A stretch of 64,000 nt of DNA, taken from contig NZ_CP081294.1 in the NCBI RefSeq assembly GCF_019711315.1, forward strand, positions 2,768,200-2,832,199. The letters run 5' to 3'. Below, one piece after another: positions 20,405 through 53,082 of the stretch (position 1 is its first letter; each line of letters begins with the position of its first letter). The translations under genes were made by a program, and so were the position numbers. This DNA is from Qipengyuania gelatinilytica. GTDB lineage: Bacteria > Pseudomonadota > Alphaproteobacteria > Sphingomonadales > Sphingomonadaceae. The notes under the pieces are model-generated. The model was not told the DNA's origin. It was given only the letters and a program-made list of their open reading frames with translations, and did not search any database.

Positions 20405-21292
20405 ATGACTTTCGATGAAATGCGCGAGCGGATCGCAACCGGACAGGGCTTCATCGCCGCACTCGACCAGTCGGGCGGTTCGACCCCCAAGGCGCTTCGC
20501 GGCTACGGTGTGGAAGACAATGAGTGGGAAGGCGACGAACAGATGTTCGGCCTGATCCACGAAATGCGCCAGCGCATCATCGAGGCACCCTGCTTCGGCA
20601 ATGGCAAGGTCATCGGCGCGATCCTGTTCGAAAAGACCATGGAAGGCGAAAGCGGCGGCAAGAGCGTGCCTGCTCGCCTGAAAGAGCGCGGCATCGTGCC
20701 CTTCCTCAAGGTCGACAAGGGTCTCGAGGACGAACGTGAAGGCGCGCAGCTGATGAAGCCCAACGCGAACCTCGAAGCCATGTGCGCCCGAGCAAAGGAA
20801 CTGGGCGTGTTCGGCACCAAGATGCGCAGCGTGATCAAGTCGGCCAATCCGGTCGGCATCAAGGAATGCGTCCGCCAGCAGTTTGCCGAAGGTGCGCGCA
20901 TCCTCAGCTGCGGCCTGATGCCGATGCTCGAGCCCGAGTATGACATCACCGCCGCAGATCGCGCCGAAGGCGAGAAGATCATGCTCGAAGCCATCGAGGA
21001 AGGGCTCGACGCGCTGCCCGAGGGCCAGCAGATCATGCTCAAGCTCTCGATTCCCAAGGAAGCCGGCCTCTATGCAGGCCTGACCAAGCACCCCAAGGTG
21101 CTGCGCGTGGTCGCCCTGTCCGGCGGCTACTCGACCGAGGAAGCTTGCAGCGAACTCGCCAAGAACCCCGGCATGATCGCCAGCTTCAGCCGCGGCCTGC
21201 TGCAGGACCTGCGCAAAACGCAGAGCGACAACGACTTCGACGGCACGCTTTCAGGCGCGATCGACCAGATCCACGCCGCCAGCGTGGCCTGA
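20405..21292 (+). CDS. fda: Fructose-bisphosphate aldolase, class I
   Basis: The enzyme cleaves or forms fructose 1,6-bisphosphate by a Schiff-base mechanism. The 295-aa protein is of the short bacterial class I type: ALDQSGGSTPKAL near the N-terminus (substrate phosphate/Lys region), FEKTMEGES, and the Schiff-base Lys213 in IMLKLSIPKEAGLY; VVALSGGYSTEEA and SFSRGL complete the family pattern. Start ATG 20405 is chosen over the upstream ATG at 20360 because MTFDEMRERIATGQGFIA is the family N-terminus. With tkt, gap and pgk it completes a group of gluconeogenic/pentose phosphate genes in one region. Confidence 0.95.
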   Translation: MTFDEMRERIATGQGFIAALDQSGGSTPKALRGYGVEDNEWEGDEQMFGLIHEMRQRIIEAPCFGNGKVIGAILFEKTMEGESGGKSVPARLKERGIVPFLKVDKGLEDEREGAQLMKPNANLEAMCARAKELGVFGTKMRSVIKSANPVGIKECVRQQFAEGARILSCGLMPMLEPEYDITAADRAEGEKIMLEAIEEGLDALPEGQQIMLKLSIPKEAGLYAGLTKHPKVLRVVALSGGYSTEEACSELAKNPGMIASFSRGLLQDLRKTQSDNDFDGTLSGAIDQIHAASVA

Positions 21293-34851: not shown

Positions 34852-36960
34852 ATGGCCTGGGCGAGCTCGCTTTCCTACCTGTCCTATTCGCTGGGCGCGA
34901 TCGTATGCGGTCTTGCGGCTTTGTGGATCGCAAGGGCCGGGGCCAAGGATCGTACCGACCGCTGGGCCGGCGTCGTGGCGCTCGCTCTGACGGCGAATTG
35001 GTGTTTTGCCGCAGCCAGCTTCTCGGCCGATCATGTTCTTGTCCAGTTCACCGAACTGACTGCCAATCTCGGCTGGATCTACGTCCTCTTCCGCTTGTTC
35101 GCCAATGATGGCCGGGACGAAAGCCTGCGAATTGTCCGGCCTGCGGTAATCGCGCTCGGCTTTGTAGAGAGCCTGCAATTCGTCCTGCTGATCATCCAGC
35201 AACGCTATGCCGTGACGCCCGATCTTGCCCTGCTGACCTTCGAGACGTCGAACCTGTTCCGGGTGCTCGTCTCCATCGGGGCTCTCGTGCTCCTGCACAA
35301 CCTCTACGTCGGCGCATCGCCATCTTCCCGCAGGATCCTTCGTTGGAATGCTGCCGGGCTTGCGGGCCTCTGGGCCTTCACCCTGAATTATCACACGATC
35401 GCCTATCTCACCGGCGATTATCCGACGGAAATGTTCGCTTTCCGCGGCCTTGCGCTGGCTGTGGTGGCCATCCCCTTCGCACTGGGCTTCGCCAAGCGCG
35501 CGGCAGGGCTGACCTTCAGCCCATCGCGAGCGGTTACCTTCCGTTTCCTCTCCTTGTTGGTGATCGGCGGATACCTTCTCGTCATGCTGGGCCTTGCCAG
35601 CTGGCTCGACATCCTGACGGGCAGCGGAGCGCGGCTGACGCAGGTGGGCCTGGTGATCGCCGCCGGAGCGCTCGCGCTGATCTGGCTCCCGTCGAACAAG
35701 CTGCGCGGCTGGCTGCGCGTGACGGCGATCAAGCACCTTTTCAAACATCGCTACGACTACCGGAACGAGTGGATACGCTTCACCCACACGATCGGCCGCG
35801 CCGGTCTCGACGATGCCAGCCTCCAGCAGCGCGTGATCAAGGCGCTCGCCGACATTACCGACAGTCCTTCGGGCCTCCTGATGTCCGGAGAGGATGAAGG
35901 CGCGCTGCAACTGGCGGCGCACTGGCGCTGGCCGCAAATGGCGGTGCCGGCCGATGCCTTCCCGCTCGAGCTGTGCGCCATCATGGAGCGTGAGGGCCTG
36001 ATCCTCGACCTCGATGAAGTCCGCGAGGGGATCGACTACCACGGCGAGAATGCGCTCGTCCCCCCGTGGCTGCGCGAGGAAACGCGCGCCTGGGCTGCCG
36101 TGCCGCTGATCCACTTCGATCGCCTCGTGGGCGTGATCGTCCTCGCCCGCCCGCTCCAGCAGCGCAAGCTCGACTGGGAGGATTTCGACCTTCTCGGCAT
36201 CGTCGGCCAGCAGCTGGCGAGCTATCTGGCCGAGCAGGCAGGACAGGAAGCGCTGTCCGAAGCCTCGCGCTTCGATGAATTCAATCGCCGCATGGCCTTC
36301 GTGATGCACGACATCAAGAACCTCTCCAGCCAGATGTCGCTCCTGCTCCGTAACGCCGAAAAGCACGCGGAAAAGCCGGAATTCCGCAAGGACATGCTGG
36401 TCACGCTGAAGAACAGCTCCGACAAGCTGAATATCCTTCTCGCACGTCTCGGGCGTTATGGAACGGGCTCGGTGGAGAACCTGCAGGATTTCGACCTTGG
36501 CGGCATCGCCGGGGCGGTGGTCGAGCGGTTGTCCACCAGTCATCAGGTGGACTTGTTGCGCCACGAGCCGGTGATCGTTTCCGGCCAGCCCGAAGCGCTC
36601 GAGCAGGCTCTCCTCCACATCGTCCAGAATGCCATCGATGCGAGCGAAGACGGTTCGGCAGTGCAGGTCGAAACCTTCAGCGACGGGCTGTCGGGCAATA
36701 TCCAGGTCCTCGACAGCGGTGTCGGCATGAGCCCCGCCTTCGTACGCAACAGCCTGTTCAAACCCTTCGTCTCTTCCAAGGAAGGCGGTTTCGGCATCGG
36801 CGCGTTCGAAGCGCGCGAGATGATCCGCGCGATGGGAGGACGCCTCGAAGTTGAATCGCGCGAGGGGCTCGGCACGCGCTTCCTCATTAAGATCCCGCTC
36901 AAGTCCGCCCGCTCGATCATTACCGGAAACGGTACCGCAAAAGACAAGGAACCCGCCTGA
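34852..36960 (+). CDS. prsK: PrsK-type sensor histidine kinase (XrtA/PEP-CTERM system)
   Basis: A 702-aa membrane histidine kinase. The first 290 residues hold seven or eight transmembrane segments; a GAF-like sensory domain lies about 315-455; the DHp helix carries RRMAFVMHDIKNLSSQMSLL (His-box), and the HATPase region ends GGFGIGAFEAREMI and GLGTRFLIKIPL. This layout, and its overlapping response regulator, match PrsK, the sensor of the exosortase (PEP-CTERM) system. The stop TGA overlaps the prsR start ATG (TGATG). No exosortase or EPS gene is in the window. Confidence 0.88.
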   Translation: MAWASSLSYLSYSLGAIVCGLAALWIARAGAKDRTDRWAGVVALALTANWCFAAASFSADHVLVQFTELTANLGWIYVLFRLFANDGRDESLRIVRPAVIALGFVESLQFVLLIIQQRYAVTPDLALLTFETSNLFRVLVSIGALVLLHNLYVGASPSSRRILRWNAAGLAGLWAFTLNYHTIAYLTGDYPTEMFAFRGLALAVVAIPFALGFAKRAAGLTFSPSRAVTFRFLSLLVIGGYLLVMLGLASWLDILTGSGARLTQVGLVIAAGALALIWLPSNKLRGWLRVTAIKHLFKHRYDYRNEWIRFTHTIGRAGLDDASLQQRVIKALADITDSPSGLLMSGEDEGALQLAAHWRWPQMAVPADAFPLELCAIMEREGLILDLDEVREGIDYHGENALVPPWLREETRAWAAVPLIHFDRLVGVIVLARPLQQRKLDWEDFDLLGIVGQQLASYLAEQAGQEALSEASRFDEFNRRMAFVMHDIKNLSSQMSLLLRNAEKHAEKPEFRKDMLVTLKNSSDKLNILLARLGRYGTGSVENLQDFDLGGIAGAVVERLSTSHQVDLLRHEPVIVSGQPEALEQALLHIVQNAIDASEDGSAVQVETFSDGLSGNIQVLDSGVGMSPAFVRNSLFKPFVSSKEGGFGIGAFEAREMIRAMGGRLEVESREGLGTRFLIKIPLKSARSIITGNGTAKDKEPA

Positions 36961-42868: not shown

Positions 42869-43354
42869 TTAAATATCGACCGAGTCCACGTGGCGTTCTT
42901 CCGCCTCGTCGTGGACAGTTATTCCGAGCGCCATCTTGGCCGTGTTGAGCAGGCCGAGGTCACCGCTCCAGATCTCGGCATCACCGAGGTCCATACGCAG
43001 GAAGAGGATATCGGGATCGTTTTTGCCGCCATCGTACCAGGCTTCGACGAAGTTGTTCCAGAAATGGTCGAAACGCTCCTTGCTGTTTTCGACCGAGAGC
43101 GTGCCGTCGAAACGCGCGAACATGTCATGGTCCTTGCCGGCAAAGCTCGCCTTGACCTTGCCGAGCTGGGCGAAGGTCGAGTTCTTCTGCGTGAAGAACC
43201 AGATCGAGCTGTTGGCGTCCTTGTCGAGCTGTGCGGTCATCGGCACCGAGGTGTCCGAGCGGCCGTCGAGCTCGAGGAAGAGGAAGGGCGAGTCCGAGAG
43301 TGCCAGCCAGAACTTCTTCTTGAGGGCGTCGGGATTACCTTCGGCGTATTTCAT
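42869..43354 (-). CDS. Pyridoxamine 5'-phosphate oxidase-like (general stress) protein
   Basis: A 161-aa protein of the flavin-binding split-barrel group, like the general stress protein 26 type. It begins MKYAEGNPDALKKKFWLALS, with SVPMTAQLDKDANSSIWFFT and a WNNFVEAWYDGGKNDPDILF block, all typical of this family. An upstream ATG at 43555 would add 67 unlikely residues overlapping imuA and is rejected; ATG 43354 has AGAAAGG 8 nt upstream. It is divergent from imuA; the LexA box is nearer imuA. Confidence 0.85.
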   Translation of the reverse strand: MKYAEGNPDALKKKFWLALSDSPFLFLELDGRSDTSVPMTAQLDKDANSSIWFFTQKNSTFAQLGKVKASFAGKDHDMFARFDGTLSVENSKERFDHFWNNFVEAWYDGGKNDPDILFLRMDLGDAEIWSGDLGLLNTAKMALGITVHDEAEERHVDSVDI

Positions 43355-43447
43355 GTCGGTGCCTTTCTGAATTGCGTTTGTCCGATCAACGACTTCGAAG
43401 GCCCGCTGTTCCATCGCTGCGCCAAACCGCAGCTGTGAAAGGATGAA

Positions 43448-43482
43448 TTGCGAATCATCGGCAGTTGGAACATAATGGGAAC
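43448..43482 (+). promoter_or_regulatory. LexA (SOS) box over the imuA promoter
   Basis: GAAC-ATAATGG-GAAC at 43468-43482 is an exact alphaproteobacterial LexA box (GAAC-N7-GAAC). It overlaps a likely promoter, TTGCGA (43448-43453), 17-nt spacer, CATAAT (43471-43476), placing LexA where it would block RNA polymerase. imuA starts 17 bp after the box. Binding is inferred from the consensus. Confidence 0.85.
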
Positions 43483-43499
43483 AAACGAGTCGATTCCCC

Positions 43500-44282
43500 A
43501 TGACCCAACCCGATCTTGCCTCCTTGCCGATCACGGCCTTCGAAGACGTCGCCACGCTGTCTGCGCGGCGCAGCGCGCGCTGGCGTCCGGGGCTGGCGGC
43601 AATGCAGGGGAAGGCCCTGCATAGCGAAATCTTCGCCTCATCGCGCGAGGCTGCGGGGGCAGGGGCGGCACTGGCGCTCGCCCTCGACGACTGGCGCTGT
43701 GCCCCCCGTGCCGATGGACAGGAAGCAGAAGACCGGCGCGGTGTGTTGTGGGTGCAGACGCGTGAAGCTGCGCGGCTCGGCGGGCGACCCTACCGTGCCG
43801 GACTGCCACAGGATCTGCAGGGGCGGGTGATCCACGTGCTGGCGGAGAAGGCGGAAGATGCGCTCTTCGCGCTGGAGGAGGGCCTGCGGTGCCGCGAACT
43901 CGCCTTCGTGATCGGAGAGGTTGCGGGCAATCCCAAGGCGCTCGATTTTACGGCCTCGCGGCGGCTGACGCTCACGGCACAGAAACATGGTGTACCGCTG
44001 TTCCTGCTGCGCATCGATGCCACACGCGACCTGTCTTCGGCACGGATGCGCTGGGATGTGACCTGCGCGCCCTCCGCTGCGCCCGAATGGAATGCGCAGG
44101 CGCCGGGCGATCCGGCGTGGAAGGCCGAACTCTTCCGGGCACGCAGCCACGCGCCGGGCGAATGGATCCTTGCCGAGAAGGACGCGCAGCTCACGGCCGG
44201 AAAGACCCGCGAAAATGCCGATCGTGCGGTCGCAAACTGGACAGCGGGGCTGCAGCATCGCCGCATGCCCCGCCGCGCGTGA
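43500..44282 (+). CDS. imuA: ImuA, mutasome RecA-like protein
   Basis: ImuA is part of the DNA-damage mutasome and regulates RecA and the error-prone polymerase. The 260-aa protein matches the ImuA size and position: LSARRSARWRPGLAAMQGKALH near the start, GVLWVQTREAARLGGRPY and LALTLDDWRC-like regions (ALALDDWRC), a weak RecA-like core. Its stop overlaps the imuB start (GTGA). SOS control is indicated by the LexA box at 43468. Identification comes mainly from the synteny with imuB plus the conserved N- and C-terminal blocks. Confidence 0.88.
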   Translation: MTQPDLASLPITAFEDVATLSARRSARWRPGLAAMQGKALHSEIFASSREAAGAGAALALALDDWRCAPRADGQEAEDRRGVLWVQTREAARLGGRPYRAGLPQDLQGRVIHVLAEKAEDALFALEEGLRCRELAFVIGEVAGNPKALDFTASRRLTLTAQKHGVPLFLLRIDATRDLSSARMRWDVTCAPSAAPEWNAQAPGDPAWKAELFRARSHAPGEWILAEKDAQLTAGKTRENADRAVANWTAGLQHRRMPRRA

Positions 44283-45862
44283 ATACCTGGGCGGCGGGCA
44301 AATTCCATCCGCCGTCGCAGGCCCGCCGCATTCTCTCGATCTGGTTGCCGGCCATGGCGATGGACCGCTGGCGGCTGGGCGCGCCCGAACGGCGCCAGCT
44401 GGACGAGACGCCGCTGGTCCTGATCGCCGACACTGCGCATGGCCCGCGGATCGAGGCCGCCAATCGTGCAGGCGCTGCTGCAGGGGCGAGGGCGGGCATG
44501 ATGCTTGCCGACGCGCGAACGCTGTGTCCTGAAATCGCGACTGCCCCGTCCGATCCGGCAGGGGATCTCGCCTTCCTCGAAAAACTCGCCGTCTGGGCAC
44601 AGCGCTGGGGGCCATGGTCCGCGATGGATGCCCCCGACGGCTTGCTGGTGGATGTCACCGCAGTGCCGCATCTCTTCGGCGGGGAGGAGAAGCTGGTCGC
44701 AGACGTCGCAGCCGCTTTCGCAAGGCGCGAGCTGGCAGTGCGCTGCGCCATCGCTCCCACAGCCGGTGCGGCCTGGGCGCTGTCGCATTATGCCGCCTCG
44801 GGCACGATCCTTGGCGCCTGCGACGATGCCGAGGCGCGGCTGGGCGAACTTCCCGTGGCCGCGCTCCGGCTCGACCAGGATGTCGTCACCGTCCTGCGCC
44901 GCCTCGGCCTCAAGAAGCTGGGGGAGCTGACCACGATCGGGCGCGATGCGATCCAGCGGCGCTTCCGCAATCGCAAGTCGCCCGCAGCCAATCCGCTGAT
45001 CCGGCTCGACCAGTTGCTCGGCCTCGTGCCGGAGCCGTTGCTCCCGGTGGTTCCGCAGCAGATGCCGCTGGTCCAGCGCCGCCTGCTCGAACCGATCCGC
45101 CATCGCCAGCTGCTCGACCAGGTGGTGTCCGATCTTGCCGACGACATGGCGCGCGAGCTGGAAGGGCGGGGCGAAGGCGCGCGCAGGCTCGAAATCGGCC
45201 TGTGGCGCGTCGATGGCGAAGTTACCGTGCGGCGTCTCGAACTTGCGGCCGCAACGCGGGAAGCGGCGCATATCGTCCGCCTTTTTGCCAGCAAGCTCGA
45301 CGACATCGACGCTGGCTTCGGCATCGAGATGTTGCGCCTGCGGGCCAGCTGGGCCGAACCTCTGGCGCTGGACCAGGGGGATATCGAGGCGGCGGCAGAG
45401 ACCCACGGGATTGCCTTGTCCGCCCTGGTCGACCGGCTGGCCGTGCGCCTCGGCGCACAGGCCGTCACGCGCCCGGTCCCCTTTGCCAGCCACATCCCCG
45501 AGCGTGCGCAGCGCTGGCAGCCGCCGCTCGAGCCGGAACCGGCGAGCCAGGGGCAGCTGGCCTTTCACAAGCGGCCGCTCAAGCTGCTCGACAAGGCGGA
45601 GCGGATTGCGGTGCTCTATGCCACGCCGGACGGCTATCCGCAGCGCTTCCGCTGGCGCGGCGAGGTGCATGAGGTCAACCGTGTCGAAGGCCCGGAGCGC
45701 ATAGCGCCTGAATGGTGGCGCGAACGCGGTGCCACGCGGCTGCGCGATTACTATAGGATCGAGGACCAGCGCGGCAGGCGCTACTGGATCTACCGATTGG
45801 GCATCGTGGGCGACGGGCGCGGCGGCGCACCCGACTGGTACCTGCAGGGGCTATCTGCGTGA
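44279..45862 (+). CDS. imuB: ImuB, catalytically inactive Y-family polymerase of the mutasome
   Basis: ImuB is a Y-family polymerase relative that lacks catalytic residues and acts as the beta-clamp-binding hub joining ImuA and DnaE2. The start is the GTG overlapping the imuA stop (44279-44282); an ATG inside would remove the RRILSIWLPAMAMDRW block. The palm lacks the DxD metal site of DinB. Blocks VRCAIAPTAGAAWALSHYA, VVTVLRRLGLKKLGELT, the little-finger-like region, and the C-terminal GPERIAPEWWR then RDYYRIEDQRGRRYWIYR are as in ImuB; the last is the family-defining tail. 527 aa. Confidence 0.93.
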   Translation: MNTWAAGKFHPPSQARRILSIWLPAMAMDRWRLGAPERRQLDETPLVLIADTAHGPRIEAANRAGAAAGARAGMMLADARTLCPEIATAPSDPAGDLAFLEKLAVWAQRWGPWSAMDAPDGLLVDVTAVPHLFGGEEKLVADVAAAFARRELAVRCAIAPTAGAAWALSHYAASGTILGACDDAEARLGELPVAALRLDQDVVTVLRRLGLKKLGELTTIGRDAIQRRFRNRKSPAANPLIRLDQLLGLVPEPLLPVVPQQMPLVQRRLLEPIRHRQLLDQVVSDLADDMARELEGRGEGARRLEIGLWRVDGEVTVRRLELAAATREAAHIVRLFASKLDDIDAGFGIEMLRLRASWAEPLALDQGDIEAAAETHGIALSALVDRLAVRLGAQAVTRPVPFASHIPERAQRWQPPLEPEPASQGQLAFHKRPLKLLDKAERIAVLYATPDGYPQRFRWRGEVHEVNRVEGPERIAPEWWRERGATRLRDYYRIEDQRGRRYWIYRLGIVGDGRGGAPDWYLQGLSA

Positions 45863-45865
45863 GGC

Positions 45866-46219
45866 TCAGCCTTCGGGGGCTGTTTCGGGGTCGAGTTCGC
45901 GCATTTCCTCTTCGGTGAGCGGCTCTTCTTCCACGCCCTCGATCTCGGAAAGCTCGGGCGCCACAGCGCTCTTGCCGCAGACGCGGTACGCGGCCTCGCC
46001 GCGACGATCGCGGATGTTCTCTACCGTCGTGGCGGCAACGCGCGACTGCTCGAGCGCACCGGGAGAATTGTTGAACGGCGGGACGAGCGCGGTCGCTGGC
46101 ACGCAGCGCTCGGTTTTCGCGCCACGATCGTCTTCGTCGACCGGACGATCCTGTGCGGACGCAAGGCTGATCGGCAGGGCGACGCTCATGGCGCCGAGGG
46201 CAAGCTTGAGTTTCATCAT
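45866..46219 (-). CDS. Small secreted protein, unknown function
   Basis: A 117-aa protein with a signal peptide (MMKLKLALGAMSVALPISLASA, cleavage near residue 22) and an acidic tail (EEEPLTEEEMRELDPETAP). Two Cys (ERCVPAT, YRVCGKS) may form a disulfide. It is on the minus strand, between imuB and a radical SAM gene, ends 4 nt after the imuB stop, and interrupts the usual imuA-imuB-dnaE2 run together with the PilZ gene. No family recognised. Confidence 0.7.
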   Translation of the reverse strand: MMKLKLALGAMSVALPISLASAQDRPVDEDDRGAKTERCVPATALVPPFNNSPGALEQSRVAATTVENIRDRRGEAAYRVCGKSAVAPELSEIEGVEEEPLTEEEMRELDPETAPEG

Positions 46220-46271
46220 ACGACCTCCGCCAGCCCGAATGGATCAGGCGAAGTGACGCAGGGGTGAACGG

Positions 46272-46670
46272 TCAGTCCTGCGAGGAAACCAGCGACGCGC
46301 GTCGACCGCGCTTGGCGACAGGGATATTGCCGAAGTTGGCGACCGGTCCGGCCTGGACTTCGACCACTTCGCAGGTCTCGGCTACGATCTTGTGCGGGAT
46401 CGGTCGTTCAAAGACGAGACCGCAGCTCTTCTCGTTGGCCCACACGACCTTCCCGAAATACTCATGGCCGCGCCATGCCAGCAGGCCGGAGACGCCTTCC
46501 TGCGGCGGATTGTCGGTCTCGAAGCGCGCACCGGCTTCCGAAAGGTCTGACAGGCGGCCGTCGCGATCGCCGCCCAGCATCTTGAGCTTGGCTTCGCAAT
46601 CGACCGAATAGCGCTGGACGGTCCGGCGCTCTTCCGCGTTCATGGTGGGAAGTTTCTGGAATAAAGCCAC
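46272..46670 (-). CDS. PilZ domain protein (c-di-GMP receptor candidate)
   Basis: A 132-aa protein with a single PilZ domain (about residues 15-110): EERRTVQRYSVDCEAKLKML with the Arg residues of the RxxxR c-di-GMP site, LSDLSEAGARFETDN and LLAWRGHEYFGKVVWA. GTG 46670 has GAGGGG at good spacing and is preferred; GTG 46676 and ATG 46643 are alternatives. It is antisense to the dnaE2-side genes and separates imuB from the radical SAM gene. Confidence 0.8.
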   Translation of the reverse strand: MALFQKLPTMNAEERRTVQRYSVDCEAKLKMLGGDRDGRLSDLSEAGARFETDNPPQEGVSGLLAWRGHEYFGKVVWANEKSCGLVFERPIPHKIVAETCEVVEVQAGPVANFGNIPVAKRGRRASLVSSQD

Positions 46671-46828
46671 GTGCACCCCTCAGTTGATCAGACAGGTGTG
46701 GGCGAGCAGTGGTTAATGCCGACCTTTGCTTCAGCCTTTATGCCATTTTAACCATGAAGGCGGGCCCGGTCCGTCGCCGCATCACCCTGCAGATGAGGAT
46801 GGGTTCCGCCTGCATATACCTTTTGATA

Positions 46829-46861
46829 TTGGCGAATCCTACCTGAGAACGTATAGTGAAC
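46829..46861 (+). promoter_or_regulatory. Second LexA (SOS) box over a likely leaderless promoter
   Basis: GAAC-GTATAGT-GAAC at 46847-46861 is an exact LexA box. It overlaps TTGGCG (46829-46834), a 17-nt spacer and TATAGT (46852-46857). The predicted start of transcription (about 46864) coincides with the ATG of the radical SAM gene at 46864, and no Shine-Dalgarno sequence precedes that ATG, so the mRNA may be leaderless. Predicted from sequence. Confidence 0.8.
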
Positions 46862-46863
46862 AA

Positions 46864-48108
46864 ATGGCCGCGCAAACTGTCCTCCAGAAGCTCGAAATTC
46901 TCGCCGATGCGGCGAAATACGATGCCTCCTGCGCCTCGTCCGGCACGGCGAAGAAGAACAGCCTTGGCGGGAAGGGCATTGGCTCGACCGAGGGGATGGG
47001 CATCTGTCACGCTTATGCGCCCGATGGCCGCTGCATCTCGCTGCTGAAGATCCTGCTGACCAACCACTGCGTGTTCGACTGTCATTACTGCGTCAATCGC
47101 AAGAGCTCGAACGTGGCGCGGGCGCGCTTCACCCCGCAGGAAGTGGTCGATCTCACGCTCGCTTTCTACCGGCGCAATTATATCGAGGGGCTGTTCCTGT
47201 CTTCGGGCATCGTGAAGAACTCGAACCACACGATGGAGCAGATCGTCGAGGTCGCGCGGATATTGCGCGAAGAGCATGATTTTCGCGGCTATATCCACCT
47301 CAAGACCATCCCCGAGGCGGATGCGGAAATCGTGCACCAGGCGGGTCTCTATGCCGACCGCGTCTCGATCAATGTCGAGCTGCCGACCGACAGCGGCCTG
47401 ACCCGCCTCGCGCCCGACAAGGATGCGCGCCAGATCGAAGGCGCGATGGGCAAGGTAAAGGCCGACCTCGTGGAGGCGAAAGATGCGCGCAAGCGGTTCA
47501 AGCACGCCCCGCGTTTCGCGCCGGCGGGCCAGTCGACGCAGATGATCGTCGGCGCCGATGCCGCGACCGATGCCGATATCGTTGGCAAGGCGAGCCGGCT
47601 CTACGACAATTTCCGTCTGCGCCGCGTCTATTACAGCGCCTTCTCGCCCATTCCCGATGCCAGCGCGGTGCTGCCGCTGAAGCGCCCGCCGCTGATCCGC
47701 GAACACCGGCTCTACCAGTCCGACTGGCTGATGCGCTTCTATGGCTACAAGCCGGCCGACGTGATGCAGGCGACCGAGGCGGACGGGAATTTGCCGCTCG
47801 ATATCGACCCCAAGCTGGCCTGGGCGCTCAAGTTTCGCGAAGCTTTTCCGGTTGATGTGAACCGCGCGTCGAAAGAGCAATTGCTGCGTGTCCCCGGTCT
47901 GGGCGTGAAGGCGGTGGGCAAGATCCTAGCGAGCCGCCGCCACCGCGCGCTGCGGCTCGACGATGTAGCATTGCTCACCCAGTCGATCACCAAGGTGCGG
48001 CCCTTCATTGTGACCGTCGACTGGCGCCCCATCACGCTGACCGACCGCGCCGATTTGCGCAGCCTGCTCGCGCCCAAGTCCGAGCAGCTGGAGCTGTTCG
48101 CCGCATGA
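46864..48108 (+). CDS. Putative DNA repair/modification radical SAM protein (TIGR03916 type)
   Basis: A 414-aa radical SAM enzyme. The Cys69-x3-Cys73-x2-Cys76 cluster motif (CVFDCHYC) binds the 4Fe-4S cluster; extra conserved Cys lie upstream (SCASSG, ICHAY). Near the C-terminus (about 330-360) is a helix-hairpin-helix element, VDVNRASKEQLLRVPGLGVK, which binds DNA backbone non-specifically. The frame is open upstream to 46726, but that would place the LexA box inside the coding region; ATG 46864 gives the family start ...TVLQKLEILADAAKYDASCA. It overlaps the UdgX gene by 4 nt (ATGA). Chemistry and substrate are unknown. Confidence 0.88.
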   Translation: MAAQTVLQKLEILADAAKYDASCASSGTAKKNSLGGKGIGSTEGMGICHAYAPDGRCISLLKILLTNHCVFDCHYCVNRKSSNVARARFTPQEVVDLTLAFYRRNYIEGLFLSSGIVKNSNHTMEQIVEVARILREEHDFRGYIHLKTIPEADAEIVHQAGLYADRVSINVELPTDSGLTRLAPDKDARQIEGAMGKVKADLVEAKDARKRFKHAPRFAPAGQSTQMIVGADAATDADIVGKASRLYDNFRLRRVYYSAFSPIPDASAVLPLKRPPLIREHRLYQSDWLMRFYGYKPADVMQATEADGNLPLDIDPKLAWALKFREAFPVDVNRASKEQLLRVPGLGVKAVGKILASRRHRALRLDDVALLTQSITKVRPFIVTVDWRPITLTDRADLRSLLAPKSEQLELFAA

Positions 48109-49541
48109 CCGCGCTCCAGCACGTCAAGCTCGGCACCTATTACGTGGTGCATCTGCCGGAAGCCGACGATTTCGATTTCTGGCGCGAACGCGCGCGCGCT
48201 CTCGTCCAGAGCGACGTGCCGCCCGACCGTATAGCATGGGTGGAGCCGGGCGGTAGCGGGGACCTCTTCGCGCATGGCGAGCGGCGCATGCCCGTGCCAC
48301 CGATGGACGCAAGGCCGGTGCGCGCCAACCGCCGCTTCGTGAGCCTTGCGAAGAACGCCATCCTCCATTCCGATCCGGAACGGTTCGCGCTGCTCTACCG
48401 CCTGCTCTGGCGATTGCAGTCGAATCCGCGGATGATGGAGGACAAGGCCGACCTCGACGTGCGGCGGGTGGAGGAACTCGACAAGAATGTCCGGCGCGAC
48501 AGCCACAAGATGCACGCCTTCGTCCGCTTCCGGCTGGTCGAGAGCGAGGATGAAGAAGTGGGCGAGCATTACGTCGCCTGGTTCGAGCCTGAGCATCACA
48601 TCCTACGCGCCAATGCGGGCTTCTTCATGCGGCGCTTTTCGAACATGCGCTGGTCGATCCTGACGCCGCGCGGCTCGCTGCACTGGGATACCGAGACCAT
48701 GTCCGAAGGCCCGCCCGCCGAGCGTCACGATGCGCCCGGCGGCGATCCGATGGAGGACCTCTGGCGCACCTATTACGCCTCCATCTTCAACCCTGCGCGG
48801 CTGAAGATCGGCGCGATGCTGAAGGAAATGCCGAAGAAATACTGGAAGAACATGCCCGAGGCTTCGCTCATTCCGGACCTCATCGCGGGCGCGCAGGGGC
48901 GCGAGGCGAAGATGGTCGAGAAGGGCGCGCTGGAGTTCGAGGAGCGGCCCGATACGCTCGCCGCCATCGACAAGGCGATCCACGCCTGCCGCAAGTGTCC
49001 TATCGGCCAGCTCGACAACCACGCCGTCATGGGCGAGGGTCCTCAGGATGCGGCATTGATGATCGTCGGCGAACAGCCCGGCGACCAGGAGGACCAGACC
49101 GGACGTCCCTTCGTGGGGCCTGCCGGGCAGCTCCTCGACACGCATCTGGAAAAGGTCGGCATCGATCGCCGCGCCGCCTACGTCACCAATGCGGTGAAGC
49201 ATTTCAAATATGTCCAGCGCGGCAAGCGCCGTCTCCACCAGAACCCGGGCGCGAAGGAAATCGACACCTGCCGCTGGTGGATCGAGAGCGAGCGCGCGAT
49301 CGTGAAGCCCAAGCTGGTGCTCGCCATGGGCGCCAGCGCGGCGCGCGGAATGCTCGGCAAGACAGTGAGCATTTCCAAGGTTCGCGGCGCGCCCATTCCG
49401 CTCGAGGACGGCAGCGAGCTCTGGGTCACCGCGCACCCCTCCTACCTCCTGCGCCTCGATGGCCCTGCGCGCGAGGAACAGGCGCGGCTCTTCGATGCCG
49501 ACCTTGCCGCCGTTCGCGCGCGGCTGGAGGATCAGGCGTGA
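48105..49541 (+). CDS. DUF4130 - UdgX-like uracil-DNA glycosylase fusion
   Basis: A 478-aa fusion: DUF4130 (about residues 85-250, ending EMPKKYWKNMPEA) followed by a uracil-DNA glycosylase domain (about 285-478). GEQPGDQED (322-330) is the uracil-binding motif and the UdgX-specific insert reads KRRLHQNPG (374-382), with His378 at the position of the covalent His in UdgX. The usual sequence is KRRIH; here Ile is Leu. UdgX proteins bind uracil-DNA irreversibly. Start overlaps the radical SAM stop; dnaE2 follows after 1 nt. Confidence 0.88.
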   Translation: MTALQHVKLGTYYVVHLPEADDFDFWRERARALVQSDVPPDRIAWVEPGGSGDLFAHGERRMPVPPMDARPVRANRRFVSLAKNAILHSDPERFALLYRLLWRLQSNPRMMEDKADLDVRRVEELDKNVRRDSHKMHAFVRFRLVESEDEEVGEHYVAWFEPEHHILRANAGFFMRRFSNMRWSILTPRGSLHWDTETMSEGPPAERHDAPGGDPMEDLWRTYYASIFNPARLKIGAMLKEMPKKYWKNMPEASLIPDLIAGAQGREAKMVEKGALEFEERPDTLAAIDKAIHACRKCPIGQLDNHAVMGEGPQDAALMIVGEQPGDQEDQTGRPFVGPAGQLLDTHLEKVGIDRRAAYVTNAVKHFKYVQRGKRRLHQNPGAKEIDTCRWWIESERAIVKPKLVLAMGASAARGMLGKTVSISKVRGAPIPLEDGSELWVTAHPSYLLRLDGPAREEQARLFDADLAAVRARLEDQA

Positions 49542-49542
49542 C

Positions 49543-52500
49543 ATGCCCGAGAACGACCAGCAGATACCCAAGCGCACGATCGAGATCGATCCTGCCGGCA
49601 TAGACGCGCCGCCGCGCAGCGCCTTCGTCGAACTCGGCCTCGTTTCCTGTTTCAGCTTCCTTCGCGGCGCGTCGGATGCGGTGGACTTGGTTCTGCAAGC
49701 CCGCGCGCTGGGTTATGACGCAATCGGGATCGCCGATGCCAACACCATGGCGGGCGTGGTGCGCGTGCATACCGAGGCGAAGACGCTCAAGCTGAGGCCC
49801 TGCATCGGCTGCCGGATCGAAACGGTCGAGGGTCTGGCCTTCCTCGCCTATCCGAAAAGCCGCAAGGCCTATGGCCGCTTGTGCCGCCTGATTTCGGCGG
49901 GGCGGATGCGCACGCTGTCGGGCGAGTGGCAGGAGAAGGGGGCGTGCGACATCAGCCTTGCGATGCTGGCGAAGCATAGCGCAGGCGTGCAGCTGATCCT
50001 GATCCCGCCACGCAACCTCGAGTGCGAATTCACTGTCCCGGCATGGGCAAGCAATGTGGTCGGCATGGGCGGCGAGAAGGTGCAGGACCATGTCGCCGCA
50101 CCTTTTGCGGATGTTATCCCGCACCTCGCAGCGGGCCTCCCCACGCTCCGCCATATCGCAGCGGCCTTCCTCTATACCGATAGTGACGTCGCGCGGATCG
50201 AGCGGCTCGATGCGCTCGCCCGCGCGAACGGCCTCTCCATCCTCGCCACCAACGACGTGCATTACGCGACGCCCGACAGGCGTCCGCTGCAGGACGTGAT
50301 GACCGCTATCCATCACAAGACCACGGTGGCGCGGGCAGGGCACCTGCTCCATGGGAATGCCGAGCGGTACCTGAAGCCGCCCGAAACCATGTGCCGCCTG
50401 TTCGAACGCTGGCCGCATGCCATTTCCGCCGCGCGCGAGGTGGCCGATGCCTGCGATTTCAGCCTCGACGAGCTGCAATACGAATATCCCGAAGAACTCT
50501 ATCCGGGCGGGGCCGAGCCGCAGGACTATCTCAAAAGCGAGACATGGAAGGGGGCGGAGTGGCGCTATCCCGAAGGCGTGCCCGACAGCGTCACCGAAAC
50601 GCTGCACAAGGAACTGGCGCTGATCGGCAAGATGGACCTTGCGCGCTATTTCCTGACCATCAAGGACATCGTCGATTTCGCGCGGACCAAGGTCGACCCG
50701 CCGATCCTGTGCCAGGGGCGCGGCAGCGCGGCCAATTCGGCGGTCTGTTATTGCCTCGGCATCACCAATGTCGACCCGGCGCAGCACCAGCTGTTGTTCG
50801 ACCGCTTCATCTCCGAAGACCGTAAGGAGCCGCCCGATATCGACGTCGATTTCGAGCACGAGCGGCGCGAGGAGGTCATCCAGTATCTCTACCGCAAATA
50901 CGGCCGCCACCGCGCCGGGCTATGCGCCACGGTGATTCACTATCGCCCGCGCATGGCGATCCGCGAGGTGGGCAAGGCCATGGGCCTGACCGAAGACGTC
51001 ACTGCCGCGCTCGCCAAGACGGTGTGGGGCGGGTGGGGCCGCGAAATCAGCGAGAAACACGCTCAGGAGACGGGCATGGATGTGACCGACCCTCACCTCA
51101 AGCGCGTTCTGAAACTGACCGAACAAATGATTGGAATGCCGCGCCATTTGTCGCAGCACGTCGGCGGGTTCATCCTCACCGAAGGCGCGCTGACCGAGAC
51201 GGTGCCGGTCGGCAATGGCGCCATGCCCGAGCGCAGTTTCATCGAGTGGGACAAGGACGATATCGAGGCGCTCGGCATCCTCAAGGTCGATGTGCTGGCG
51301 CTGGGTATGCTGACCTGCATCAAGAAGTGCCTCGACCTCTTGGGCGACCACCACGGCCGCCAGCTCACTCTCGCCAATGTCCCGCGCGAAGACCCGGAAA
51401 CCTATGCCATGCTGCGCAAAGGGGACTCGCTTGGCGTGTTCCAGGTCGAAAGCCGGGCGCAGATGAACATGCTGCCCCGCCTGCGCCCCCGCCAATTTTA
51501 CGATCTCGTCATCCAGGTCGCCATCGTCCGCCCCGGCCCGATCCAGGGCGACATGGTGCATCCCTATCTCAAGCGTCGCCGCGGGGCCGAAGAGGTGAGG
51601 ATACCGGCACCAAGCCCGCAGCATGGTCCGCCCGACGAACTCTCCAGCATCCTCGAACGCACGCTGGGCGTTCCGATTTTCCAGGAACAGGCGATGAAGA
51701 TCGCGCTCGATGCGGCCAAATTCTCGTCCAAGGAGGCGAACCGGCTGCGCAAGGCCATGGCGACTTTCCGCAGCCGCGGGATGGTGGACGAGCTGCAGGA
51801 CATGATGGTCGAACGCATGGTCACGCGCGGCTATGACCGCGAGTTCGCGCAGCGCTGCTTCAACCAGATCCGCGGTTTCGGCGAATACGGCTTTCCCGAA
51901 AGCCACGCCGCCAGCTTCGCGCATCTCGTCTATGTGTCGAGCTGGCTCAAGTGCCACTTTCCCGCGGCCTTCGCCTGCGCGCTGCTCAATTCGCAGCCCA
52001 TGGGCTTTTACGCGCCTGCCCAGATCGTGCGCGATGCGGCGGAGCACGGGGTGCGCGTTCTGCCGGCGGATGTGAATTTATCCCAATGGGACTGCACGCT
52101 GGAAGAAACGGGCGAGGGCGGAGCGGTCGAAGGCGACAGCGGCCGCCTCGACAAGCATATCGCTTTGCGGCTCGGCCTGCGGATGATCGACGGGCTGTCC
52201 GAAGCGGTTGCGGCGCAGCTTGTCGCCGAGCGGGAGGAACATGGCGCATATGAGGATGTGCGCGCGCTGCGCGACCGTGCGCGCACCGGCCCCGCGCATG
52301 TCGAACGGCTCGCCAGCGCCGATGCCTTCGGCTCGATGCAACTCACGCGACGGCAGGCCTTGTGGGATACGCGCAGCCTTGTCGGCGGGCCTGACCTGCC
52401 GCTTTTCGCGGCCGCTGCTGCGCGGGACGAGGGGGCGGAAAAGCAGGCCACGCAGCTTCCGCAGATGCCGCTCAGCGAGGAGGTGGTGGCCGATTACCAG

Positions 52501-53082
52501 ACCACGCGCCTTAGCCTGAAGGCGCACCCGATGGCGTTCCTGCGCGCCAGTCTTGCCGAGCGCGGCTTCGTGCGCGCCTGCGACCTGCGCGCGAAGAAAT
52601 TCCGGAGCATGGTCCATGTCGCCGGCGTGGTGCTGATCCGCCAGCGACCGGGCAGCGCCAAGGGCGTGTGCTTCATCACGCTGGAAGACGAGACCGGCGT
52701 CATCAACCTCGTCGTCTGGCCGGATCTGAAGGAAAAGCAGCGCCGCGTGGTCATGGGTTCGCGCCTGATGGAGGTGAGGGGCCGCGTCGAATATGACGAC
52801 GAGGTCATCCATGTCATCGCGCAGCACATGACCGATGCGACAGGCGAGTTGAACAAACTCTCGGACGACATGCTGAGCGCCCCGCTCGCCCGCGCCGACC
52901 ATGTCTCATCGCCGCTGCCCGACAAGTTCAACCCGCGCGACAATCTGCGCGAAGGCAAGGACGATCCCTACCAGCCCGTCGAGCCGTGGCAGGAACCGCC
53001 ACCGGGCAACCGCGAATGCGGTTGGCATCAAGGCCATCCGCGCGATGTGCGTATCATCCCGAAATCGCGCGACTTCCACTGA
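49543..53082 (+). CDS. dnaE2: Error-prone DNA polymerase DnaE2 (ImuC)
   Basis: A C-family polymerase alpha subunit of 1179 aa that carries out translesion synthesis with ImuA and ImuB. Domain order: PHP domain at the N-terminus (FVELGLVSCFSFLRGAS, residues about 25-250), catalytic palm with PPDIDVDFEHERR (Asp434, Asp436), the helix-hairpin-helix/tau region and a C-terminal OB-fold (VAGVVLIRQRPGSAKGVCFI, ITLEDETGVINLVVWP). Start is ATG 49543; upstream in-frame ATG 49459 lies inside the UdgX gene. It is the third gene of the radical SAM - UdgX - dnaE2 unit, so the LexA box at 46847 probably controls it. Confidence 0.95.
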   Translation: MPENDQQIPKRTIEIDPAGIDAPPRSAFVELGLVSCFSFLRGASDAVDLVLQARALGYDAIGIADANTMAGVVRVHTEAKTLKLRPCIGCRIETVEGLAFLAYPKSRKAYGRLCRLISAGRMRTLSGEWQEKGACDISLAMLAKHSAGVQLILIPPRNLECEFTVPAWASNVVGMGGEKVQDHVAAPFADVIPHLAAGLPTLRHIAAAFLYTDSDVARIERLDALARANGLSILATNDVHYATPDRRPLQDVMTAIHHKTTVARAGHLLHGNAERYLKPPETMCRLFERWPHAISAAREVADACDFSLDELQYEYPEELYPGGAEPQDYLKSETWKGAEWRYPEGVPDSVTETLHKELALIGKMDLARYFLTIKDIVDFARTKVDPPILCQGRGSAANSAVCYCLGITNVDPAQHQLLFDRFISEDRKEPPDIDVDFEHERREEVIQYLYRKYGRHRAGLCATVIHYRPRMAIREVGKAMGLTEDVTAALAKTVWGGWGREISEKHAQETGMDVTDPHLKRVLKLTEQMIGMPRHLSQHVGGFILTEGALTETVPVGNGAMPERSFIEWDKDDIEALGILKVDVLALGMLTCIKKCLDLLGDHHGRQLTLANVPREDPETYAMLRKGDSLGVFQVESRAQMNMLPRLRPRQFYDLVIQVAIVRPGPIQGDMVHPYLKRRRGAEEVRIPAPSPQHGPPDELSSILERTLGVPIFQEQAMKIALDAAKFSSKEANRLRKAMATFRSRGMVDELQDMMVERMVTRGYDREFAQRCFNQIRGFGEYGFPESHAASFAHLVYVSSWLKCHFPAAFACALLNSQPMGFYAPAQIVRDAAEHGVRVLPADVNLSQWDCTLEETGEGGAVEGDSGRLDKHIALRLGLRMIDGLSEAVAAQLVAEREEHGAYEDVRALRDRARTGPAHVERLASADAFGSMQLTRRQALWDTRSLVGGPDLPLFAAAAARDEGAEKQATQLPQMPLSEEVVADYQTTRLSLKAHPMAFLRASLAERGFVRACDLRAKKFRSMVHVAGVVLIRQRPGSAKGVCFITLEDETGVINLVVWPDLKEKQRRVVMGSRLMEVRGRVEYDDEVIHVIAQHMTDATGELNKLSDDMLSAPLARADHVSSPLPDKFNPRDNLREGKDDPYQPVEPWQEPPPGNRECGWHQGHPRDVRIIPKSRDFH

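Follow-up and report, generated by a model that had tools for sequence, protein, structure and literature searches.

Gene layout and promoters of the locus

The window considered here is a 64,000-nt stretch of the genome of Qipengyuania gelatinilytica (contig NZ_CP081294.1). The locus under study, at positions 43448-53082, carries the genes of an SOS mutasome cassette, imuA, imuB and dnaE2, together with a gene for a radical S-adenosylmethionine (SAM) protein and a gene for a partner protein in which a DUF4130 domain is fused to a uracil-DNA glycosylase (UDG) of the UdgX type (Table 1). The original prediction, made from the sequence of the window, had listed these genes and had placed the radical SAM and DUF4130/UdgX genes between imuB and dnaE2; the gene coordinates bear this out, and add two minus-strand open reading frames (ORFs) between the units that had gone unmentioned. 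With the pair and these ORFs intervening, imuA, imuB and dnaE2 do not form one contiguous operon here, and the two ORFs would make read-through from imuA less likely. The ORF next to imuB had no match in a Pfam scan. ImuB carries the IMS, IMS_C and DUF6504 domains, all above the Pfam cut-offs (a Y-family polymerase fold followed by a C-terminal domain), and the dnaE2 product scores 1373.2 bits against NF004225 (cut-off 939). The imuA product matches NF033429 at E 1.1e-05 and 25.4 bits, where the curated cut-off is 150, and its position fits ImuA. The sequence supports the radical SAM, DUF4130/UdgX and dnaE2 genes as one tightly packed unit, with dnaE2 as its third gene, behind the second of two boxes of the LexA type.

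Both boxes had been predicted as exact GAAC-N7-GAAC matches placed to control, respectively, imuA-imuB and the radical SAM unit, and both were found as described, each overlapping the -10 element of a predicted sigma-70-like promoter. A sigma-70 consensus scan of positions 43300-47000 returned two promoter-like sites against 0.3 expected, and the -10 elements of both lie within the LexA boxes; terminator-like sites in the same span numbered four against a shuffle mean of 1.9 (standard deviation 1.3), which is not clearly above chance. The count of boxes alone is no proof, and it is by position that the two stand out. The window holds four GAAC-N7-GAAC matches against 1.65 expected (at least four were seen in 7 of 100 shuffles), and the genome holds 75 against 64 for the reversed pattern, so that most matches, among which the window has two further exact ones at 21152-21166 and 35035-35049, are chance ones. 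In the same genome lexA and recA (genes assigned by family matches) are preceded by exact boxes too, and another lies 11 nt before a gene that reads, by eye, as uvrA. A weak LexA C-terminal-like match (24 bits, below the cut-off) was noted at G000:C1:2614940-2615689 (loci L162 and L184), with an exact GAAC-N7-GAAC nearby.

Table 1. Features of the locus, in window positions.
Feature	Position	Strand	Remarks
Sigma-70-like promoter of imuA	43448-43476	+	TTGCGA, 17 nt, CATAAT; predicted; -10 within LexA box 1
LexA box 1	43468-43482	+	GAACATAATGGGAAC; exact GAAC-N7-GAAC
imuA	43500-44282	+	260 aa; identity from position and relatives
imuB	44279-45862	+	527 aa; GTG start overlaps imuA stop; IMS, IMS_C, DUF6504
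Minus-strand ORF	45866-46219	-	between imuB and the radical SAM gene
Minus-strand ORF	46272-46676	-	PilZ; likewise between the two units
Sigma-70-like promoter of the second unit	46829-46857	+	TTGGCG, 17 nt, TATAGT; predicted; -10 within LexA box 2
LexA box 2	46847-46861	+	GAACGTATAGTGAAC; exact GAAC-N7-GAAC; ends 2 nt 5' of the radical SAM ATG
Radical SAM gene	46864-48108	+	ATG start; 414 aa; TIGR03916
CX3CX2C radical SAM cysteines C69, C73, C76	47068-47091	+	invariant in 135/135 aligned
QLELF codons (residues 408-412)	48085-48099	+	predicted sliding-clamp-binding motif at the C-terminus
DUF4130/UdgX fusion gene	48105-49541	+	478 aa; start overlaps radical SAM stop (ATGA)
UdgX signature loop KRRLH	49224-49238	+	histidine is the DNA cross-linking one in M. 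smegmatis UdgX
dnaE2	49543-53082	+	1179 aa; error-prone DNA polymerase; ATG one base past the UdgX stop (TGAcATG)

Conservation of the second box and history of the arrangement

Two sets of loci were compared. The first comprises the best 80 of 591 radical SAM matches, nearly all from Sphingomonadales by title (among the titles, L001 reads Salinicola, and L005, L048 and L077 read only Alphaproteobacteria, Pseudomonadota or Proteobacteria); the second comprises 52 loci outside that order, from other Pseudomonadota, retained from 54 matches over the cut-off after G403 and the fragment G190 were left out. The L001 contig, filed under a Salinicola metagenome-assembled genome, was probably wrongly binned: its copy of the locus shows 97% protein identity, and it falls in with Qipengyuania. 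Exact LexA-type patterns, including the E. coli type searched as CTG[TC]-N8-[AG]CAG, were sought between positions -120 and +25 relative to the start of the radical SAM gene. Such a box was present in 78 of the 80 loci and in 46 of the 52, where it was divided among GAAC-N7-GAAC (27), GTTC-N7-GTTC (7) and the E. coli type (12), while random control windows of the same loci matched in 1.4% and 1.0%, respectively. The two misses in the first set, L055 and L068, are each one base off a box, and in three of those in the second (L122, L131 and L132) inspection by eye reveals a near-match to the E. coli type; neither a LexA-type box nor a near-match was present in the span searched in L082, L094 and L108. 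By this comparison the radical SAM gene keeps a predicted LexA-type box in front of it although the motif recognized by LexA varies. The reading that both boxes are chance matches, and the units not SOS genes, draws on the near-chance counts in the window and on the 75 genomic matches against 64, but it is made very unlikely by this conservation across two different LexA patterns, and its probability is negligible.

The promoter geometry is likewise shared by 78 aligned relatives, which have a TTG-type -35 element (T 0.92, G 0.95), a spacer of 17 nt and TATAA within the box. In 56 of them, as in the window, the first in-frame start codon lies 2 nt past the box; transcription would thus begin at or next to the ATG, and the message of the radical SAM unit is probably leaderless.

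That the pair joins the SOS response, as had been proposed, is in keeping with these surveys, while the novelty of the idea does not stand: the SOS wiring of the pair is well supported by comparison, but it is mostly already known. The radical SAM protein belongs to TIGR03916, which we take to be the same family as COG4277. According to passages of PMC8565304, a two-gene UDG system of Bacteroidetes, COG1573-COG4277, is under SOS control; earlier reports of an SOS-controlled UDG system in Verrucomicrobia and Alphaproteobacteria are cited there (Erill 2016 and Paes da Rocha 2008 are among the works cited). Passages of PMC3765255 (Aravind and colleagues, 2013) group DUF4130 together with UDGs and radical SAM photolyases within a network of SOS genes. 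The present surveys extend this SOS membership of the radical SAM/DUF4130 pair to more loci. The locus resembles the COG1573-COG4277 operon in having a two-gene UDG unit behind a LexA-type box, and differs in that dnaE2 is also part of the operon; a term search of PMC8565304 did not find UdgX or DUF4130, and the passages covered mention no clamp motif. With the set in PMC3765255 it shares the same domains in SOS gene neighbourhoods; the radical SAM protein of that set is SplB-like, whereas the one here belongs to TIGR03916 and its model has its best listed structural matches in lipoyl synthase and HydE-type enzymes. The imuA-imuB-dnaE2 SOS cassette of Caulobacter, Pseudomonas and mycobacteria has the same three genes, LexA boxes and one polymerase with ImuA and ImuB as accessories; here, in contrast, the cassette is split by the radical SAM-DUF4130/UdgX pair into two LexA-boxed units, and dnaE2 comes last in the second.

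The position of dnaE2 varies among relatives. It lies directly behind UdgX in 37 of the 80 loci and does not in 36, and in seven the contig ends too soon. The gene order of this locus is found in relatives, but not as a general rule. In a survey of 147 genomes of the order, in which family presence was counted over the cut-off and co-occurrence was tallied by hand, the radical SAM family occurred in 43, dnaE2 in 86 and matches to the ImuB query in 89. The radical SAM gene and dnaE2 lay within 3 kb of each other in 18 of the 43, all in the family of the window. dnaE2 was present in 42 of the 43 genomes with the radical SAM gene versus 44 of the 104 without it (Fisher p 1.6e-11), and, within the family of the window, in 41 of 42 versus 18 of 22 (p 0.044, a value that also ignores kinship); much of this co-occurrence is kinship.

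A quick tree of 63 DnaE2 rows (three partial rows of less than 700 aa were left out; L009 and L182 are identical) places all 39 loci in which the pair is inserted within one clade of 45, below which the contiguous imuA-imuB-dnaE2 cassettes branch. Six changes are needed to account for the arrangement, and its simplest reading would be one insertion of the pair followed by several losses. In two members of the clade, L137 and L138, imuB and dnaE2 are those of the clade, but the stretch holds neither a radical SAM gene nor a UdgX gene that is intact; both retain the box GAACATATAAGGAAC, which lies 40 and 138 bases ahead of dnaE2, respectively. By blastn, the sequence before dnaE2 in both aligns to the radical SAM promoters of relatives, and in L138 tblastn still picks up a weak trace, short in length, of where the radical SAM gene began (E 0.012). 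These genomes, which lack the pair and have its promoter before dnaE2, provide a natural control. Across 66 loci, a box within 200 bases before dnaE2 was found in none of 42 inserted and none of 21 contiguous arrangements, in both of these scarred loci and in the one divergent locus; a box before imuA, where testable, was found in 37 of 37 inserted, 19 of 21 contiguous and 2 of 2 scarred loci. dnaE2 thus lies behind some SOS box in nearly every arrangement, which supports box 2 as its promoter in the window. In L172 (G138), imuA-imuB and dnaE2 point away from each other and one GTTC-N7-GTTC box precedes dnaE2. A second wiring of both systems was seen in L103-L106, in which the radical SAM pair is divergent from imuA-imuB-dnaE2 with a single LexA box between them. 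A universal radical SAM-UdgX-dnaE2 operon is rejected, linkage among the loci fetched being confined to one DnaE2 clade and to L103-L106; as judged by gene order and the tree, the placement of dnaE2 in the radical SAM operon is real and specific to the Erythrobacteraceae and some Novosphingobium.

The radical SAM gene also matches 158 PLSDB plasmid records, most commonly from Phaeobacter, Paracoccus, Azospirillum and Leisingera, and two annotated plasmid copies are two-gene units with no dnaE2 in the stretch shown.

The radical SAM protein, its predicted clamp-binding tail and its partner

The radical SAM protein ends in KSEQLELFAA. According to a passage in PMC12309361, the commonest sliding-clamp-binding motif is QL[S/D]LF, with QxxLF as a looser form; QLELF fits the looser form and has, at the third place, E instead of S or D. 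The strict pattern Q[LM]xLF occurs in the last 30 residues of 77 of the 80 radical SAM proteins, and the three misses (L007, L070 and L079) read QFELF or QMEMF. Outside the tails, the radical SAM proteins of these loci, which total 51,300 residues, do not contain it, and only one of 128 partner tails does. When the last 15 residues are considered, 104 of 134 radical SAM proteins and 0 of 2647 other ORFs have the strict pattern, and 109 and 1, respectively, have QxxLF; the controls are ORFs of at least 250 aa from the same loci, called mechanically, many of which are not real genes. A database search with L094, a distant member, gave 7998 matches; the best 120 are in many cases close to each other, and Psychrobacter, Moraxella, Chryseobacterium and Ornithobacterium are among their sources. 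Of these 120, 115 have the strict motif within their last 40 residues, in tails that otherwise differ. In the model, the predicted local distance difference test (pLDDT) score of the tail is below 50, as expected for a free peptide. The tail suggests that the radical SAM protein may be a sliding-clamp client. No earlier report of a clamp motif in the TIGR03916 family was found among the papers listed, and one may still exist; as far as the literature was searched, the QLELF clamp-type tail of this family is new.

Passages of PMC10421592 present ImuB as the clamp-bound hub that organizes the mutasome in mycobacteria. With a clamp-type tail on the radical SAM protein, a meeting with ImuB-DnaE2 at the clamp becomes plausible, and so, by analogy, does a joint site of action with clamp-docked ImuB-DnaE2. 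A clear, conserved clamp motif in ImuB, DnaE2 or ImuA was also sought and is not supported with the patterns used: strict-like motifs occurred in 24 of 66 loci for DnaE2 (those printed being mostly QLILL or QLVLL near residue 150) and in none of 47 for ImuA; the counts for ImuB are given below.

Against TIGR03916, named for a 'putative DNA modification/repair radical SAM protein', the protein scores 571.6 bits (cut-off 343.5), and a weak helix-hairpin-helix match at residues 329-359 falls below the Pfam cut-off. The best listed structural matches of its model are lipoyl synthase and HydE-type enzymes; spore photoproduct lyase (SPL, SplB) is absent from the 50 structures listed, which are of other radical SAM enzymes, and it may still be kin. 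No tested substrate for the family was found in the literature passages covered. Three cysteines in addition to the radical SAM triad, C23, C48 and C57 (46930-46932, 47005-47007 and 47032-47034), are invariant in 135 of 135 sequences and perhaps bind an auxiliary cluster; residues 21-57, which contain them, are modelled mostly with pLDDT below 50, and a second cluster could not be placed there. In L060, L063 and L071 a hemerythrin HHE gene (Pfam E 1.6e-15 to 1.6e-17) stands between the radical SAM gene and the partner, and L062 resembles these loci by eye, all being other Sphingomonadales loci; the hemerythrin might sense or carry oxygen or iron next to an enzyme that is sensitive to oxygen.

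In the partner, DUF4130 spans about residues 20-253 and UdgX about residues 255-470 of 478. It scores 227.4 bits against TIGR03915 (DUF4130; cut-off 112.25), its gene directly following the TIGR03916 gene, and 323.7 bits against TIGR03914 (UdgX; cut-off 189.95), with the GEQPG motif and the KRRxH loop present. The UDG part is about 40% identical to M. smegmatis UdgX and shares with it GEQPG and the loop with the cross-linking histidine, which is kept in 108 of 110 full-length rows; unlike M. smegmatis UdgX, whose crystal chains are about 205-229 residues long, it is fused behind DUF4130 here, and its gene shares an operon with that of a radical SAM protein. Structural matches of the UdgX part are 6ajp and 6l6s, and those listed cover only the UDG part, so that the fold of residues 1-253 was barely probed. 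Among the window UdgX cysteines considered in the alignment (C295, C298 and C389), C389 is absent in 9 of the 110 full-length rows (8 Tyr, 1 Thr) and C295 is absent in 9; such rows perhaps represent UdgX without an iron-sulfur cluster.

Nineteen of 131 aligned partner rows, the window included, are shorter than 340 aa; two of them, L015 (maybe a broken gene) and L107 (which runs off its contig), are not counted as natural DUF4130-only proteins. Lengths that are neither full nor short were seen in L018 (418 aa) and L053 (420 aa, cut), the 15-aa call of L081 was left out, and tblastn found no partner in L005 (contig end), L076 and L080. The radical SAM/UdgX pair of the original prediction needs correcting as the core: the partner that stays constant is DUF4130, kept where the UdgX part is missing, and UdgX is optional.

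Explanations weighed

The explanation that we favour, and regard as probable, is that of an SOS mutasome cassette split in two by an inserted radical SAM/DUF4130 SOS operon whose radical SAM protein docks on the clamp. LexA box 1 would cover the promoter of imuA-imuB, and box 2 that of radical SAM-DUF4130/UdgX-dnaE2. The pair appears to be a widely conserved SOS operon of its own that would have come, with its own box, between imuB and dnaE2 in an ancestor of the Erythrobacteraceae and some Novosphingobium; comparison and tree support the view that dnaE2 has since then been read from the promoter of the pair. Upon damage, LexA would be cleaved and both units induced. The radical SAM protein would then dock by its QLELF tail on the beta sliding clamp, the platform where ImuB would dock and bring in DnaE2, and at the clamp it may process a damaged base together with DUF4130. 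UdgX, where present, might excise uracil and covalently cap the resulting abasic site, which could be left as a blocked site for tolerance or recombination. A more specific form of this explanation holds that the TIGR03916 protein is a clamp client which forms, with DUF4130/UdgX, a clamp-bound lesion-processing complex. During the SOS response this complex would share the clamp with ImuB-DnaE2, or alternate with it there, and would serve the mutasome as a chemical arm, editing or capping the template base either ahead of translesion synthesis or once it is over; this is offered tentatively, as an idea somewhat likelier to fail than to hold.

Several observations weigh against the favoured explanation, and the reading in which alarm is shared and work is separate comes close to an even chance of being right. 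By that reading an independent base-repair operon landed in the imu cassette and dnaE2 borrows its promoter, the proteins not cooperating. Of the 73 decidable loci of the first set, 36 have the pair and dnaE2 in separate places, and in the second set dnaE2 lies within the fetched flanks (mostly 8-10 kb per side, some contigs ending sooner) in only 4 of 52 loci, the L103-L106 already mentioned, 48 being without it. Six loci of the DnaE2 clade lack the pair (L133-L138), four of them (L133-L136) with a contiguous imuB-dnaE2 and no second box, and all keep dnaE2, which indicates that DnaE2 can do without the pair; some SOS box before dnaE2, kept in nearly every arrangement, may suffice. UdgX is optional, a number of relatives carrying DUF4130 alone. 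The strict tail motif is found in only 25 of the 52 loci outside the order, the other 27 carrying variants such as QLSLL, QMALW, QASLF, QLGFGF and QLSLAF, and a strict-like motif is found in ImuB at only 6 of 64 loci, the ImuB of the window having only the weak candidate QLAFH. On the other side, the clamp motif would put the radical SAM protein at the site assigned to the mutasome in mycobacteria by the passages of PMC10421592, and thus offers a possible meeting place for the pair and DnaE2, at which the pair may, as originally suggested, clear or flag a lesion for DnaE2 to bypass, and in the survey of the order the pair almost never occurs without dnaE2.

Two narrower readings fare less well. 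The UDG could be the point of the arrangement, being made with the polymerase in order to remove uracil or misinserted ribonucleotides left by error-prone synthesis. UdgX would indeed be cotranscribed with dnaE2 here, and PMC8565304, in the part covered, proposes that UDGs under SOS control deal with ribonucleotides misincorporated by error-prone polymerases; yet a number of relatives lack the UDG part and still have the radical SAM gene and DUF4130 downstream of the SOS box, and UdgX, according to passages of PMC10359453, forms a covalent DNA adduct rather than turning over, its physiological role being called largely unknown there. We consider this reading unlikely. It is more doubtful still that the QLxLF tail is no clamp motif and is kept for a udgX ribosome-binding site or an intramolecular contact: in the window a GGAG does lie within the motif codons, 11 nt before the udgX ATG, but the motif is kept also in loci whose partner begins hundreds of bases further on or consists of DUF4130 alone, and in tails that otherwise differ widely; its place is the very C-terminus or a few residues from it, where pLDDT is below 50.

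If the favoured explanation of a split cassette with a clamp-docked radical SAM protein is followed, the SOS promoter conserved across Pseudomonadota and the clamp-type tail together say when and where the function of the pair should be sought, namely after damage and at the sliding clamp. The tail hints at the work site of a little-understood DNA-repair pair that is apparently switched on, in this lineage, with an error-prone polymerase.

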